Source: a virus
Strand: one strand, 5' to 3'
Length of the DNA stretch: 28,783 nucleotides
IMG/VR virus record: IMGVR_UViG_3300028388_002525
Location: 1 to 28,783 of that record
The notes under the pieces were generated by a model that saw only the letters and a program-made list of their open reading frames with translations, did no database searches and was not told where the DNA came from. This document shows positions 5,694-24,307 of this stretch, piece by piece. Numbering within the stretch: position 1 is the first letter of the stretch; every line of letters begins with the position of its first letter. Both the position numbers and the translations under genes were made by a program.

Positions 5694-8600
5694 TTGGTGG
5701 GCTTCTTTTTGGCAGTGGTTCCGCCGGAGCTGTTCTGCACATTGGGGTTCGTGCAGGACACGCCAACGATGCTCTGACGAAGTTTACAACCCGTGCTCAT
5801 AACGCGGGTAAGGCTACAGAGCATTTTGAGCGCACCACGCGCAACCTGACGAATAGCCTCGGTATCCTGGGGACATTCTTTGGTGTGCGGCAGATGATTG
5901 AATATGCCGACACATGGACGCTCATCAACTCCCGCATCAAGCTTGTTACGAAATCTTCAGAACAGGCGAGAGCAGTTCAAATGCGGCTTGCAGACATTGC
6001 GGCCAGTACCCGTAATGATCTTGCGGCTACATCCGTTCTGTATACCCGTGTCGCACTGAACGCGGATCAGTTGGGTCGTAGCCATGAAGAGCTTCTGACC
6101 GTTGTTGAATCTGTGAATGCGGCAATGCTCGTATCTGGCGCGACGGGTGTGGAGGCCGCGCAGTCCATCCGACAGCTTGCTCAGGCGCTCGGTTCTGGTC
6201 GCCTTCAGGGTGACGAGTTCCGTACCACGATGGAAGCCATGCCCATGGTGGCGCGTGCTATCTCGGATGAGATGGGCGTGGAGCTTGGTGATCTCTACAA
6301 GTTGTCCGCGGAAGGATTGATTGATGTGCAGACGGTTATCGATGCACTGATCAATTCCAACGGCAAACTTGTGGACATGGCGAAGGACATGGCGTGGACC
6401 ACAGACCAAGCCATGAAGGTCATCAAGACACGCGCAACGCAATTGATCGGTATTCTGAACATGACGTTCGGAGCTACCCGAAGTCTTGCGATGGCGTTTC
6501 TGTGGTTGGCAGATAACATCGCAAAAGTTTTCTCTTTGCTCACTGCATTGACTGCCGCAGGGATCGCGTACCGGGTTGCGATGAACGGAATGATCCGCGT
6601 ACAAGCGACGATTGCCGCTTACTTTGCGTTGACCAAAAAGAATGGACTAGCGGTCATCGCCGTCAACAGTATAATGACGGCGGCACGGAGTGTTCGCGAC
6701 TTCTTTTTGCTTGCTACGGCCATTCGGAGAACCGCGGACGCTATGGCGCTCTTGCAGGTTGTTTCCATGGGTGCCATGAAGGCAATTGCTGTGATCGCCG
6801 CGTTTGGTGCCGGATACGTGGCATACCAGATGGTCGCGGAAAAGATTGCAGAAGCAACCCGTGAATGGGCAGAAGCACAAGGCGACCTGACCGACAAGCT
6901 GGGTGAAGGCGGCCTTGACAATGCAGATGAGGAAGCTTTGCGCAGGGCTTTGGAAGTTCGGCGCGAGATTCAAGACAACTGGCGCGAACTGTTTCAGACA
7001 ATGGGCAGTCTTTCCGCCGCGAATGAACTGCAAGAAAAGCAGTTGGAGGCGCATTACGAGTGGATCGACAAGATCGTTGATCTTAACCGTCGTCGGGAAG
7101 ATGGTGAGTTGAATGATCAACAGTACGAGGAGCTCCGTGCTCAAGCAGAGGTGTGGCGGGAAATGACCATGCTCGTAAATACCTACGAGCAAGAGCTTGA
7201 AGATGCACGCGAAGTCCTCAAAAAGCACGAAGACACAATCAAGCGGTTTGCAGATAACCTTCAGCGTGGCCTTGGAGACGCCATCTTCCAAGGTATGCAG
7301 GAAGGAATCGATAAACTACAAGACTTTTTTGACGTGATTCGCGACATGTTCTTTAGACTGCTCGCAGATATCACGGCAGCGAAGTTCATGGAAACGACAA
7401 GAGGATCCCTCGAGTCTTTCCTGAGTAATTTTATCGGTAACGAAGAAGAGCGCCGTATGGCAGGTCAGCGGATCTCGGAAATTGCGGGTATCGGAAGATC
7501 CTACGGTGGGCGAGCGGTCCATGGATTGACGGACCGACAAAAGGACATGCTCGAAAAGCAGTACAATAGCTTCTTGAAAAATATGCCTACTACCGTAGAC
7601 GAAGATAAGCTCGGCAAGGCCATCGGAAAGTATGCGGGTCCGGCGTTGGCTGGTGTCATCATTGGTACGGGCATCGGTCAGATGACTTCCAACAACACAT
7701 TGGGAGCGTTGGGTGGAGCCGCTGGCGGTGCGATGGCCGGGTTCGCGTCTGCTGGTCCCGTCGGTGCTCTTGTCGGTGGATTTACGGGTGCCGTTTCTGG
7801 ATTGATTGGAAGTAATGAGCGCCAACGTCAAGAAGCTGAACGACTGCGCCGTCGGATGGAGGCGTTGCAGATTACAATCGAGGCGAACAACCGTCGGCTG
7901 GAAGAACTGCGAGCAGACTTCTTGGGCGGAAACACAATGTCTGCGCTCGTGAAAGACTTCTACGAAGCTGTCAAGTCTTTGCGTCCGAACACCCAGCGCG
8001 ACATGTGGGAAGTGGGTAACCTGGATCTTCCGTTCTACACGAAGATGAGCGCAGACATGAAGGAAGTCTTCGGTAGAATGGCACAAGAGCTTGGTATCAA
8101 GATTTTCGATGAAGAAGGTCGTGTTATCATCGAGGCTATGAAGCAGCTCCAAGAGGCAGTGGAGCTCACTGTGCGGGCGATGCTGGAGTTCGGTACAAGC
8201 ATTGATGAACTACGTAGCAAGCAAGACTACTACAACACTATTTTTGGAATCGAAGATTCTGGCATGAGCGATGCCTACAACCTGCTGATGCAGGGTGCCC
8301 CCGAGCTTATGAAGCAAATGGGGCTGGCCAACCTGGATCTTTCTTCTGCGGCGGCACGAGAGACACTCCGTGAAGGGTTCAAAGAAATCTTCCGGTTGAT
8401 CGAGTCCGGGGGACTGACACTTGACCTGCTGGGTGCATTCGGAGATAAGAATGAGTTGCTGGACGCCATTGTGGCCGTAATCGACGCCTTCGGCGCACTG
8501 GAACAAGAGTTGTACGACATCACGACCGATTTCCCTCGCGCAATGGACCTGATGTACTATCAGCAGAAGTTCGGTACATACGGGTTGAGCGATCGCAACA

Positions 8601-20081: not shown

Positions 20082-20402
20082 CTAAAGCCATGGACTTGCA
20101 CGGACACGCGGAGGATGCAGAATCGCCACGATGGGTATCCCGAGTGTCCACGCATAGTACATTTCCATACTTGTCCCTACCGAGGGCCTTAAGCAGTTCA
20201 CGACTACAACGTCGCTCATCTGAATGTCCCTTTTGTCCATACAAATGATTTCGTTGATGTTCGCGTCTAGGTCGCCCCGGTAATCCCTCCGCATCGGATC
20301 AAGACACTTCTTTTCACCGAAGAATCTTTTGAAGGCTTCGCGCCAGTTTTTTGCTTCGGAGTCGCTCGTTTCAAACATAGGGCCAGCCAGATAAATCTTC
20401 AT
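20082..20402 (-). CDS. Nucleoside 2-deoxyribosyltransferase-like protein
   Basis: The product has 106 residues with the family pattern: 'YLAGPMFE' at the start, 'WREAFKRFF', 'IICMDKRDIQMSDVVVVN' and 'PSVGTSMEMYYAW' with E80 in the place of the catalytic nucleophile, then 'GIPIVAIL' and 'SPWL'. Enzymes of this fold swap the base on a deoxyribose, or act as related nucleotide N-glycosidases. It is short for the family but the core motifs are complete. The start overlaps the DpdA stop (TAATG), which puts it in the DNA base-modification operon. A role in supplying or clearing deoxynucleosides with a modified base is inferred. Confidence 0.7.
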   Translation of the reverse strand: MKIYLAGPMFETSDSEAKNWREAFKRFFGEKKCLDPMRRDYRGDLDANINEIICMDKRDIQMSDVVVVNCLRPSVGTSMEMYYAWTLGIPIVAILHPPRVRASPWL

Positions 20403-21247
20403 TAGAAAAGCTTCGGTTGGGGTGCAGTAAACGTTTTATCTTCAGGCTGCATTTCACCCATCATGTTATAGGTTATGATGTTGAAACACTTCCGAGACCA
20501 GTGACTCTTGCGGAGTCTTTCTAAGTCAAAGCCAAGGTCTTCAATAAAACCTGTTACAGCGCTTGGTGCACGATCGGAGACAGAGAGCATACCCCACTGT
20601 GGGAAGAAGATATTCCCGATTCCTCCAAGCTGTACCCATGACGAAGAGTCTACCGAGTACCAAGGGTACCGCGACATCAGTTTGAAGCTTGTCAGTCCAA
20701 ACCCGTGCACTTTGATCTTGGCTGTTCCATCCGGGTTGGTCAGGTGCTTTTGCCAGATTTGGTCGAGCCAGACTTTCAGCTGAGAACTACTGATCGGTAC
20801 CATGCCGCCAATCGTAATGTAGTCGTAATTGGCGACGTAGTATTCTAGCACCTCGTCAGGTTCGCCGTAGTGGAAACACGGTAAAGGCTGAACACCTTTA
20901 GATTCCATGTATTTTTGATTGCGCCATGTACCATTGTGGTCACCGATGGCATCAAGAACACTGGCAAACTGTATGAAGTCTTGGTTTTCCTTGACGTACT
21001 CAATGTATTCGTCGATGTCGATGTGTGCTCCCTTCGTGTAAGAAGAGAACGCACCGGAGTCCAAAAAGATTTCTCTGCCAGACTCTCTGATCCGCTTTAC
21101 CATGCGGTCGACGTGGCAATAATGGTATGAGTCCAGAATCCACGGAACACTTTTGAGTGCCTTACGTTCGACCTCGTCTAGACGGTTCCACACCGTACTA
21201 CCTTCGACAAAGTCGTTGTAGATCAATGCGGCGAGGTATACCCGCAT
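20402..21247 (-). CDS. dpdA: DpdA-like 7-deazaguanine DNA transglycosylase
   Basis: This 281-residue relative of tRNA-guanine transglycosylase exchanges guanine in DNA for a 7-deazaguanine base. Evidence: 'FLDSGAFS' (D63, the general base position), 'FASVLDAIGD' (D99), 'YITIGGMVP', 'VHGFGLTS' and 'YSVDSSSW' (D200, the nucleophile position). No zinc-binding C-terminal cluster of the tRNA enzymes is seen, and the protein is short, as in phage DpdA. It lies one base after the GTP cyclohydrolase stop and beside QueC, QueD and QueE, the supply enzymes for its substrate. The DNA target is inferred from this context. Confidence 0.85.
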   Translation of the reverse strand: MRVYLAALIYNDFVEGSTVWNRLDEVERKALKSVPWILDSYHYCHVDRMVKRIRESGREIFLDSGAFSSYTKGAHIDIDEYIEYVKENQDFIQFASVLDAIGDHNGTWRNQKYMESKGVQPLPCFHYGEPDEVLEYYVANYDYITIGGMVPISSSQLKVWLDQIWQKHLTNPDGTAKIKVHGFGLTSFKLMSRYPWYSVDSSSWVQLGGIGNIFFPQWGMLSVSDRAPSAVTGFIEDLGFDLERLRKSHWSRKCFNIITYNMMGEMQPEDKTFTAPQPKLF

Positions 21248-21248
21248 A

Positions 21249-21791
21249 TCACTTTACGCTCGAAAGAAACTCTGCGCGTACCGCCGGGTCGGCACGGAAC
21301 ACCCCACGCAAAACGTTTGTAATCGTTGCTGTGCCGGGTTTTTGTATGCCCCTACTCTCCATGCACATGTGGCGTGCCGAAACGCTTACAGCGGCCCCCC
21401 GTGGCTTTAGGTGGGCCATTAGAGCGTCCGCCACCTGTTGCGTTAAACGTTCCTGGACCTGTAGGCGTCGAGCGTACACTTCCAGAAGCCGTGCAAACTT
21501 GGAGAGCCCGAGGATTCTGCCGTTGGGGATGTACGCGATGTGTGCGTGCCCGAAGAAAGGTGCCATGTGGTGCTCACAATGGCTGTAGAATGGGATGTCG
21601 CGCACAAGTATCATTTCGTCGTACGCTTCGCCACCATCGGCGAATGTCGTAAGTACGTCGGCAGGATCCATTGTGTACCCTTTGAACCACTCCTTGTACG
21701 CTTTGGTGACTCTGCGTGGCGTGTCGACGAGCCCTTCCCTTGCGGGGTCTTCCCCAATGTACTTGATGATGTCGTGTATGTGTGCCCTCAT
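21249..21791 (-). CDS. folE: GTP cyclohydrolase I
   Basis: This 180-residue enzyme converts GTP to dihydroneopterin triphosphate, the first step of queuosine-type deazaguanine synthesis. Zinc ligands are all visible: C72 and H75 in 'HCEHHMAPFFG' and C143 in 'ARHMCMESRG'; the family signature 'GRILGLSKFARLLEVYARRLQVQE' follows the first. The ATG at 21791 forms an ATGA overlap with the QueD stop and has AAGGTGG upstream, so this start is chosen over further-upstream codons. It is the first enzyme of the pathway by chemistry but the fifth gene by order. Confidence 0.95.
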   Translation of the reverse strand: MRAHIHDIIKYIGEDPAREGLVDTPRRVTKAYKEWFKGYTMDPADVLTTFADGGEAYDEMILVRDIPFYSHCEHHMAPFFGHAHIAYIPNGRILGLSKFARLLEVYARRLQVQERLTQQVADALMAHLKPRGAAVSVSARHMCMESRGIQKPGTATITNVLRGVFRADPAVRAEFLSSVK

Positions 21792-22225
21792 GCGTCCACC
21801 TTTGTATAGCTGGCGGAGCACTTTCGAGTCTCTTCGATGCGTACCTTGCGGAGCGTTACATCTGTGTCCCTCAGCTGATGCGGCCCCACCACGTTCACAA
21901 GGAACTCTGCCATGTTCTCCGCGGTGGGATTGAACGGCACGACTTTTACGCTCATCATAAACATCGGGTGTGCGTCACGAAGCCTTTCCAGGAGGGGATC
22001 TTGCGCCCAGATCAGCATCTTGTGGTCCCAATTGTCTTCGAGCCACATGCACAGGTGAGACTTGATCACACCAAAGTCGACGACACGGCCCACTTTATCT
22101 AGATGCGGCGTTTCGCACATGAAGTGAACGCGGTAATTGTGCCCGTGAAGATTGCGGCACTTGTTCTCATGGCCGACAACCCTGTGGCCAGCGGAGATGT
22201 CGTGGTACCTTTCTGCGGTGATCAT
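21788..22225 (-). CDS. queD: 6-carboxy-tetrahydropterin synthase
   Basis: This 145-residue enzyme turns dihydroneopterin triphosphate into 6-carboxy-5,6,7,8-tetrahydropterin. The zinc histidines are H14 ('ISAGHR') and H27/H29 in 'LHGHNY'; the catalytic Cys is C23 ('NKCRNLHGH'). Other family marks are 'GRVVDFGVIK', 'NWDHKMLI', 'PTAENMAEFL' and 'VRIEETRKCSASY' (E131). Length is slightly above the usual 120. Its ATG overlaps the QueC stop (ATGA), and its stop overlaps the folE ATG. It could not be told from eukaryotic PTPS by motif alone, but the operon fixes it as QueD. Confidence 0.92.
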   Translation of the reverse strand: MITAERYHDISAGHRVVGHENKCRNLHGHNYRVHFMCETPHLDKVGRVVDFGVIKSHLCMWLEDNWDHKMLIWAQDPLLERLRDAHPMFMMSVKVVPFNPTAENMAEFLVNVVGPHQLRDTDVTLRKVRIEETRKCSASYTKVDA

Positions 22226-23043
22226 ACGCCGTGCTCCTCCATCCAGTTTATCGCCAATTTTACCAGATCCATGTACATGCGCATGTAGTGCGTTCCGTAA
22301 TTCATCGAACGCGGCAATTCTTCTATGTGGCCTTCCAGGAACGCGCGAAGAATGAGCGGGTCGGGCAACTTCGCTTCTTCAAACCCTTTTGCACGGAGCA
22401 GTGTAGCGTGGTCCTTTCCTGTAGGCGGATACTGTCCGTCGTAGGCGGTGTGAGTCATTGCCAACGCGGGGACTCCAGTAGTGTACTCGAACGCCATCTT
22501 GCACGTTTCGGCTTTGTTCAGATCCAACAAAGGGGTCCAGATTTTGCACGGGCGCAACGTACCGGGCTCGCCAGTGAAGGTACCGGCGTTCATGGCTTGT
22601 TCGATCGTCATAATGAACTTTAGGCGACAGTCCGGATACCCGCCGTAATCTTCCTGGCTCACACCCGTCACGAGATTGCGGGCACCGAGCACATAGGCTC
22701 TGTTCGCCGCCACAGTGAGGAAAAGCTGATTCCGCATGGGCACGAACGTTTTTTCGATCCCGTCAGGCATGTTGTTTGGATCTTCGTACTGCTCCAGTTC
22801 TTCGTCGGACACAAGTGGAGAGGTGCCTTGAAGGATGCCTTTTGGAAACGTAATGACCTCGTGGCTGTCGGCTTCCAGGAAACGCGCCACGTTACGAGCG
22901 GAGTCGATCTCACGCTTATGGCGTTGCCCGTAGTCGAACGTAACGCAATGAACCTTTGCGAACTTCTTCTTGGCCCACAACAGGCATGTGGTCGAATCTT
23001 GCCCTCCGGAAAGGATGACAACGCAATCAGACTTCTCGTGCAT
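22222..23043 (-). CDS. queC: QueC-like 7-deazaguanine synthetase lacking its zinc site
   Basis: This 273-residue protein is of the QueC family, which converts 7-carboxy-7-deazaguanine to preQ0 with ATP and ammonia through an amide intermediate. It keeps the PP-loop 'SGGQDS' (12-17), 'FDYGQRHKREI' and 'VSQEDYGGYPDCR'. In the usual 'T.SCY.G...CG.C..C..R..GF' zinc segment it reads 'THTAYDGQYPPTGKDHATLLRAKGF', with A200, T208, D211 and T214 where the four Cys should be. About 40 residues extend past the usual end. The ATG at 23043 follows AGGAG and is preferred over upstream codons. It overlaps the zinc-ribbon gene by 17 bases. Confidence 0.85.
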   Translation of the reverse strand: MHEKSDCVVILSGGQDSTTCLLWAKKKFAKVHCVTFDYGQRHKREIDSARNVARFLEADSHEVITFPKGILQGTSPLVSDEELEQYEDPNNMPDGIEKTFVPMRNQLFLTVAANRAYVLGARNLVTGVSQEDYGGYPDCRLKFIMTIEQAMNAGTFTGEPGTLRPCKIWTPLLDLNKAETCKMAFEYTTGVPALAMTHTAYDGQYPPTGKDHATLLRAKGFEEAKLPDPLILRAFLEGHIEELPRSMNYGTHYMRMYMDLVKLAINWMEEHGV

Positions 23044-23224
23044 CGTGGGCTCCTGTGTTTGTGATTGAAGAATGCGGCCCGATGTCCCGACGCCACTTGT
23101 GTGCTGTGATGTGAAGCGGCGTGCACCCCATGGGGCAGTAAGCATCGGGAGGTGGCCTATTGTGTTCATCGTAGATCACAAAACGTGTGGAGCAGACAGA
23201 GCACGTATACTCGTATGCTTTCAT
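23027..23224 (-). CDS. Small zinc-ribbon protein between queE and queC
   Basis: The product has 65 residues with 'CSVC' (C8, C11) and 'CPMGC' (C30, C34) about 20 residues apart, enough for one zinc-ribbon knuckle. The rest is basic ('HKWRRD'). I do not recognise a family beyond the small zinc-ribbon type. Its ATG overlaps the QueE stop (ATGA) and its end overlaps QueC, so it is surely part of the modification operon. It is not a standard queuosine gene. A partner role for QueC, whose own zinc site is lost, is possible; only the position supports this. Confidence 0.6.
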   Translation of the reverse strand: MKAYEYTCSVCSTRFVIYDEHNRPPPDAYCPMGCTPLHITAHKWRRDIGPHSSITNTGAHDAREV

Positions 23225-23916
23225 GGTAGGCCGATCTCCTTGTGTACTTGAATGCCGAGTATGTAGTTTTTGTGCTCCATCACAGAAGCGGCGGCGGCCT
23301 TCAGGTTGGCCATGTTTTCTGCTGGATCTTTGGCATCCATTGGGTTCACGTAAATCTGTCCACGGTGCCCTTCGGGGGGTCTGGCCACACGGTCCCGATG
23401 ACCTGTCGTGTGCCCGAGTGCCATGAGCGGCAAACCGTCGTCTGCAACTTGGTCTGCTTCCAGAACATACTTGAAGCAGTTTGCACGGACGGCGGTCTGT
23501 TTGTTGATCTTCGCGGTCTTTGGGCTCACCACCACATATGTGGCCAACGGTAGGCGATCCGGTGGCGGGAGGGTGCCGTTGGTCTCTACCTGAACGTCGT
23601 AGCCGAACAGTAGAAGCCTTCCAGCAAGTAGGGAGATGTTCTGCCGAAACGGTTCACCTCCCGTAATGACCACAAGGTTCCCGTGTTGGAGCTCTTCTAC
23701 GGCGCGGGCGATGTCCTCGTAGTCCATGAGGTACTTCTTACTGGTGTAGTCCGTGTCGCACCACGGGCACTGAAGATTGCAACCGTACAGTCGAACAAAA
23801 ACGGCGGCGTGTCCGGTGAAGGGTCCTTCACCTTGAATAGTCGGAAAGATGGAGTGTACTAGGAGGGAACCATCTTCCCGGTGGTCCTTCGCGATTGGCT
23901 CTTGTGTATTGAGCAT
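23221..23916 (-). CDS. queE: 7-carboxy-7-deazaguanine synthase (radical SAM)
   Basis: This 231-residue enzyme makes 7-carboxy-7-deazaguanine from the QueD product. The iron-sulfur motif is CxxxCxxC in 'YGCNLQCPWCDT' (C46, C50, C53), followed by 'VVITGGEP' (86-89) for SAM binding. The start 'SIFPTIQGEGPFTGHAAVFVRL' and the end 'ILGIQVHKEIGLP' match QueE. The ATG at 23916 follows CAGGGA and lies past a strong hairpin, so it is preferred over an open frame that runs 46 codons further upstream through that hairpin. It is the first gene of the deazaguanine run in transcription order. Confidence 0.92.
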   Translation of the reverse strand: MLNTQEPIAKDHREDGSLLVHSIFPTIQGEGPFTGHAAVFVRLYGCNLQCPWCDTDYTSKKYLMDYEDIARAVEELQHGNLVVITGGEPFRQNISLLAGRLLLFGYDVQVETNGTLPPPDRLPLATYVVVSPKTAKINKQTAVRANCFKYVLEADQVADDGLPLMALGHTTGHRDRVARPPEGHRGQIYVNPMDAKDPAENMANLKAAAASVMEHKNYILGIQVHKEIGLP

Positions 23917-23945
23917 TGAATCCCTGTGGGTGTGGGAAACGGATA

Positions 23946-23971
23946 GGGGGTGGGGTGTGAACCCCACCCCC
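23946..23971 (-). terminator. G/C hairpin in the leader of queE
   Basis: GGGGGTGGGG (23946-23955) pairs with CCCCACCCCC (23962-23971) around a six-base loop in the gap between the preceding gene and queE. No T-run follows on the - strand, so it may be a partial terminator, an RNA stabiliser or an attenuator. It sits 30 bases before the queE start. Confidence 0.55.
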
Positions 23972-23986
23972 TTCCGGATGCATGTG

Positions 23987-24307
23987 TTAGTCGTCGGACT
24001 CGACTTCAGCCTCTTCCGTGTCCGCGTCCACCTTCGCCCGGCGGCCAGGAGCATTGGCTCCAGTCAGCCCGTGGAACTTCCTCCACCGTCCGAACTGCGT
24101 GGTGCAGGTCGAAGGGTTCCCACCCTCCTGATCCACGTACACATCGATAACTTCCTTGCGCTGTGCGGGCTCACCCTTCGCCTCGCTGATCTCGTCCGCG
24201 ATCTCCCACACGCGACCCGTCATCGTTCCGGCTCGAGGACGGCGAATGCCGTTGCGCTCCGGTGCCACAGGCTTCTGCTCCTGTTCCTTCTTTTCCGTAT
24301 CGGCCAT
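23987..24307 (-). CDS. Protein with shared C-terminal 'VW.I.DE' domain, copy 3
   Basis: This 106-residue protein has an acidic/polar N-terminus and an acidic tail ('DADTEEAEVESDD'). Its middle (about 31-77, 'GRVWEIADEISEAKGEP' and 'STCTTQFGRWRKF') is a diverged copy of the domain found at the C-termini of the next two genes upstream. The start at 24307 has GGAGG five bases before it; an ATG at 24319 with AAGGAG further away is the alternative. The function is unknown. The helix-rich pattern and basic C-terminal block would suit DNA binding, which is inference. Confidence 0.55.
   Translation of the reverse strand: MADTEKKEQEQKPVAPERNGIRRPRAGTMTGRVWEIADEISEAKGEPAQRKEVIDVYVDQEGGNPSTCTTQFGRWRKFHGLTGANAPGRRAKVDADTEEAEVESDD

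Follow-up and report, generated by a model that had tools for sequence, protein, structure and literature searches.

A zinc-less QueC-family variant in a viral preQ0 operon, most likely still a preQ0 synthase

The window analysed here, a 28,783-base virus record from IMG/VR, carries a preQ0-pathway operon on its minus strand in which the QueC-family protein lacks the cysteines of the zinc site. This raises the question of whether such a protein can still work as a QueC, and whether its product would be the nitrile preQ0 or the amide that precedes it. We consider it most likely that the protein is still an active preQ0 synthase that functions without zinc, and that its product would feed the DNA transglycosylase DpdA encoded in the same operon.

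QueC family membership and the replaced zinc knuckle

The operon encodes, in order, QueE, QueC, QueD, FolE, DpdA, a nucleoside-deoxyribosyltransferase-like protein, a DnaN-like protein and a PolA-like polymerase, and thus links the window queC to queD, queE and folE (Table 1). A near-identical gene order was found in Stenotrophomonas phage Bhz54, Microcystis phage Me-ZS1, Rhizobium phages and others. The deoxyribosyltransferase-like protein is a possible second route for modified deoxynucleosides; similar ORFs occur in Edwardsiella phage ZHS and Aminobacter phage Erebus.

Table 1. Coordinates of the operon genes discussed and of features within QueC
Feature	Position	Strand	Remarks
QueE, radical SAM 7-carboxy-7-deazaguanine synthase	23221..24054	-	CxxxCxxC kept; actual start is probably internal
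65-aa ORF with four Cys (TCSVC...YCPMGC, zinc-ribbon-like)	23027-23224	-	directly upstream of QueC, overlaps QueC start
QueC-family PP-loop protein without zinc cysteines	22222..23043	-	273 aa; read 23043..22222 from an ATG start, AGGAG 8 nt upstream
Former zinc knuckle, residues 198-221, HTAYDGQYPPTGKDHATLLRAKGF	22381..22452	-	D211-T214 at start of predicted helix 212-223
Cys-position codon, A200	22444-22446	-	
Cys-position codon, T208	22420-22422	-	
Cys-position codon, D211	22411-22413	-	
Cys-position codon, T214	22402-22404	-	
C-terminal arm, residues 224-273	22225..22374	-	PDPL..R..., LP...NY, terminal helix; predicted ordered
QueD, 6-carboxytetrahydropterin synthase	21788..22225	-	His/Cys motif intact
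FolE, GTP cyclohydrolase I	21249..21821	-	zinc ligand motifs (CEHH, second Cys) intact
DpdA-like DNA 7-deazaguanine transglycosylase	20402..21247	-	phrog_887, E=1.4e-72; kin of DpdA from phage Iggy and others
Nucleoside 2-deoxyribosyltransferase-like protein	20082-20402	-	between DpdA and DnaN

The window protein matches the Pfam QueC family (PF06508) with E=2.7e-53, its only other Pfam match being a PP-loop match to Asn_synthase, and it passes the QueC equivalog model TIGR00364 of NCBIfam (score 175.6 bits, cut-off 150.3). The first-pass annotation had described the PP-loop and the remaining QueC motifs as intact, and alignment confirmed this. The SGGxDS PP-loop is present as SGGQDS (S12-S17) and is invariant across the cysteine-less clade; YGQRHxxE (Y38, Q40, H42, E45, following YxQxHxxE), VPMRN (V101, P102, R104, N105, following VPxRN), YPDC (Y136-C139), K177 and Y201 are all kept. 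Mutation of Y35, R99, Y131 or Y189 kills E. coli QueC (PMC13329287). These four residues align with Y38, R104, Y136 and Y201 of the window protein. The C(x)8CxxCxxC zinc motif is absent, so a strict label of canonical QueC fails and we assign the protein to the QueC family as a zinc-less variant.

Alignment with the crystallised proteins 2PG3 and 3BL5 and with four-Cys relatives, of which the closest (L087) is about 56-57% identical to the window QueC, placed A200, T208, D211 and T214 at the positions of the four zinc cysteines, as first noted. No cysteine occurs in residues 196-218, and the sequence lends no support to cysteines elsewhere in the chain having taken over the same site. Since comparable replacements occur in about 90 further sequences, a sequencing error can be excluded. 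The flanking motif HT.Y.G..PP...H...LR..GF is in part ancestral, being found already in four-Cys relatives such as L086 (THTCYKGEYPPCGHCHACLLRQKGF). The change therefore consists of four substitutions and a C-terminal arm. The extension suspected at the outset is real: the median length is 267 aa in cysteine-less and 231 aa in four-Cys proteins, and the LP..NY part and the final helix are missing from close four-Cys relatives such as L087. Zinc thrift was rejected as the driver of the loss, since FolE and QueD in the same operon retain their zinc motifs.

The AlphaFold2 model of the window QueC has a pLDDT of 95.3 and a pTM of 0.92, and a Foldseek search with it gave the QueC structures 2PG3 and 3BL5 as the best solved matches, followed by Cap9 (9NTO, rank 4). 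In the model, helix 212-223 begins directly past D211; the matching helix of L087 (residues 205-216) begins directly past Cys204. A classical capping box combines Asp or Asn at the helix N-cap with Thr, Ser or Asn at the third residue after it. Given where the predicted helix starts, the CxxC metal clamp therefore appears to have been turned into a helix-capping box, a reading of contacts from predicted secondary structure. The Asp or Asn would be the N-cap and the Thr, Ser or Asn the N3 residue of a box replacing the CxxC half of the knuckle, while the first cysteine would give way to a small residue and the second position would be free to vary. With such a box in place, the loop bearing the catalytic Tyr201 could keep its shape without a metal, perhaps aided by the conserved C-terminal arm.

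Spread among viruses and in bacteria

A tblastn search with a 58-residue segment found it in 43 public phage records. A single-sequence scan of viral contigs returned no relatives, and an alignment-based scan did recover them. The Cys positions were scored in 176 QueC sequences drawn from bacterial genomes, phages and IMG/VR contigs; because the 80 IMG/VR loci had been selected for their similarity, they give no measure of prevalence. The well-matching viral relatives are without the cysteines except L015, L016, L078, L079, L086, L087 and L097. In a set of 91 viral-type sequences, among them the window protein and one from a bacterial single-cell contig (L099), 90 lack all four cysteines and one keeps only the first. 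The latter (L075, 6004-6855) reads C, N, N, S at the zinc positions and is possibly an intermediate state. In every one of the 91, CxxC is replaced by [D/N]xx[T/S/N]; position 1 is S or A, apart from one G and one C, position 2 is filled by 11 different residues, and H212 is invariant. The operon context is widely kept, with FolE in 83, QueD in 81, DpdA in 75 and QueE in 73 of 89 cysteine-less viral loci. The form is thus common (43 phage records; 89 viral loci), and the impression of a singular protein was mistaken. The annotation had also allowed that it might be both common and known among related phages; the first holds and the second does not, as annotators call the form canonical QueC, in one case in print (PMC7472734).

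For the phage forms without the cysteines, one common origin for all was not rejected (AU p=0.89). In a quick tree, a few four-Cys viral sequences are interleaved among the cysteine-less ones, so that regain of the cysteines or multiple loss is possible. Two viral-type loci deserve separate mention. Contig L099 (119 kb) of a Candidatus Hydrogenedens single cell has a phage-type cysteine-less QueC (5986-6720) and may be viral or cellular. Vibrio phage GR7B (L016, 3986-5576) has two adjacent QueC-family genes, one for a four-Cys protein with an enlarged knuckle loop and one for a divergent 234-aa protein.

A second cysteine-less form was found in nine Bacteroidota/Rhodothermota genomes (L139, L175, L191-L197), namely Adhaeribacter aerolatus (L139), a Rhodothermus MAG (L175) and seven others. 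Its 'DNPAS' motif, (H/M/I)TDYNG...WG.G.LDN(P/Q)AS.LR..G(Y/F), has N..S at the former CxxC, a replacement resembling a capping box, with Pro at the N1 position (window position 212) in eight of the nine. The bacterial proteins share the loss of the four cysteines with the window QueC but are only about 40% identical to it, and they differ in having Asp at the first Cys position and extra loop residues and in lacking the C-terminal arm. They form their own supported group in the tree. A shared origin with the phage form was not rejected (AU p=0.23), and independent loss in bacteria is therefore likely but unproved. Because the bacterial form is a distinct sequence type, it offers analogous, not direct, evidence on the phage enzyme.

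The cysteine-less protein is the sole full-length QueC in all nine genomes, eight of which encode TGT. QueF is encoded in eight, lying within about 1.2 kb of queC in seven; it was looked for and not found in A. aerolatus. In the established pathway QueF reduces the nitrile preQ0, so the bacterial cysteine-less QueC must be capable of producing the nitrile unless preQ0 is imported. A stretch of A. aerolatus (L139, 5476-11883) resembles a bacterial island for DNA modification or defence: QueD and the cysteine-less QueC are followed there by DUF6884, NurA, a HerA-like ATPase and a TGT/DpdA-like protein. Roseofilum halophilum (L101, 5995-7119) encodes a 375-aa protein in which a four-Cys QueC domain is fused to a QueF domain (Pfam).

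Probable product of the cysteine-less QueC and rival explanations

Because the cysteine replacement is common to a large phage group and some bacteria, zinc seems to be replaceable in QueC, with the normal product most likely still made. The zinc-free enzyme would convert 7-carboxy-7-deazaguanine into preQ0 at the cost of two ATPs, and DpdA would exchange preQ0 into the phage DNA, which would thereby be protected from restriction. It appears unlikely that the loss is coupled to a change in chemistry or in the use of partners, such as amide release or obligate hand-over to DpdA, which would make the phage proteins a functionally distinct clade.

The first-pass annotation had proposed that the enzyme without zinc may halt at the amide, in which case the phage DNA would carry dADG. 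The amide is a real QueC intermediate, dADG is known from some phage DNA (PMC6884629, PMC8306585), and the 28.8-kb fragment has neither a downstream amidotransferase nor QueF. However, genes of the QueF family, which needs the nitrile, co-occur with cysteine-less QueC: 19 of the 89 viral loci have a separate QueF-family ORF (of the small QueF-L-like kind in three of the 19), and QueF-encoding bacteria have the analogous form as their only QueC. Furthermore, the residues reported as essential for preQ0 formation are all kept. Phage Iggy is reported to be dPreQ0-modified (Olsen 2023, as cited in PMC11008142). Its QueC is cysteine-less. Presumably the Iggy host makes preQ0 too, and the dPreQ0 could then draw on the host supply, which weakens Iggy as support. 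The DNA of Campylobacter phages CP220 and CPt10 was reported to contain dADG (PMC8306585), but the QueC of their relative CP21 retains the four cysteines. We consider a halt at the amide improbable. Four cysteines are likewise kept in the QueC of CAjan, a dPreQ0 phage. The cysteine status of CAjan, Iggy and CP21 shows that zinc status does not track the base, and the idea of predicting the DNA base from it was therefore rejected.

The QueC might instead be a degenerate, inactive or scaffolding relic in a phage that relies on host preQ0. The motif cited as the family hallmark is gone, and phages with DpdA only are able to use host preQ0 (PMC6884629, PMC8306585). Against this, the closest pairs that are informative have dN/dS values of 0.09-0.26, indicating purifying selection; the catalytic residues are invariant despite wide divergence in the cysteine-less clade; and the place in the preQ0 operon is conserved. 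The role of the bacterial form as sole QueC in QueF-encoding genomes argues, by analogy, in the same direction. A relic is accordingly improbable too, and the suggestion that the cysteines were lost under selection rather than by decay is borne out by the dN/dS values, the invariant catalytic residues and the uniform use of [D/N] and [T/S/N] at positions 3 and 4.

Another metal or ligand set (D211, H212, H198 or others) could stand in for the four cysteines, as the invariant H212 and the constant Asp or Asn at 211 might suggest. However, the histidines at 198 and 212 (H198, H212) are present together with the four cysteines in the close relatives L086, L087 and L097 and are therefore not new ligands. 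Asn at 211 and Ser or Ala at 200 are poor ligands, and the bacterial form mostly has Pro at 212. Substitute ligands thus seem very unlikely. The 65-aa protein encoded upstream might supply a zinc knuckle in trans: it has CxxC and CxxxC motifs, its ORF overlaps the QueC start, and small Cys-rich ORFs lie at the equivalent place in Iggy, PBPA162, L024 and L089. This is extremely unlikely and was rejected as a general explanation, since such an ORF is missing from the great majority of the roughly 90 cysteine-less relatives, among which QueC often directly adjoins QueE, and the window ORF has no match in the Pfam or PHROG families.

Known relatives and implications

The preferred reading, a zinc-free preQ0 synthase, can be set against the known systems. 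Canonical QueC (PF06508/TIGR00364; E. coli, B. subtilis 3BL5, Pectobacterium 2PG3) shares with the window protein the PP-loop, YxQxHxxE, VPxRN, YPDC, the Lys and the Tyr, as well as the fold and the QueD, QueE and FolE neighbours; the window protein differs in lacking C(x)8CxxCxxC and in its extra ordered C-terminal arm. The QueC proteins of phages Iggy, PBPA162, RHEph05, R5C, Pan1 and MMDA13 have the same [DN]xx[TSN] cysteine-less knuckle, the C-terminal arm and a preQ0 operon with DpdA. They are 45-63% identical to the window protein, some with QueF or a longer tail, and are annotated as ordinary QueC. The anti-phage defence proteins QatC and Cap9 share the fold and the ATP site and retain a zinc motif (PMC13329287). 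They sit with QatA/B/D or CD-NTase partners, whereas the window QueC sits with the preQ0 pathway and DpdA, and no such defence partners were found around it. Gat-QueC (phage 9g, archaea) likewise brings a QueC domain to DNA-modifying phages but has a glutamine amidotransferase domain and four cysteines (L204); the 273-aa window protein has neither, and Pfam detected no fused amidotransferase domain in it.

A 2026 map of the QueC family names the zinc motif as the hallmark of the canonical cluster, and its available part contains no description of a zinc-less phage clade (PMC13329287). The cysteine-less phage group is apparently undescribed in the literature searched, coverage of which was incomplete. 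A site treated as a hallmark of QueC is yet replaced in a large phage clade and in a probably separate bacterial one. In both, the replacement resembles a helix-capping sequence, which predicts that the metal is structural and dispensable. Natural pairs such as the four-Cys L087 and the window QueC make this dispensability directly testable. Annotators should not screen for QueC function by the four cysteines, nor use them to predict the DNA base.
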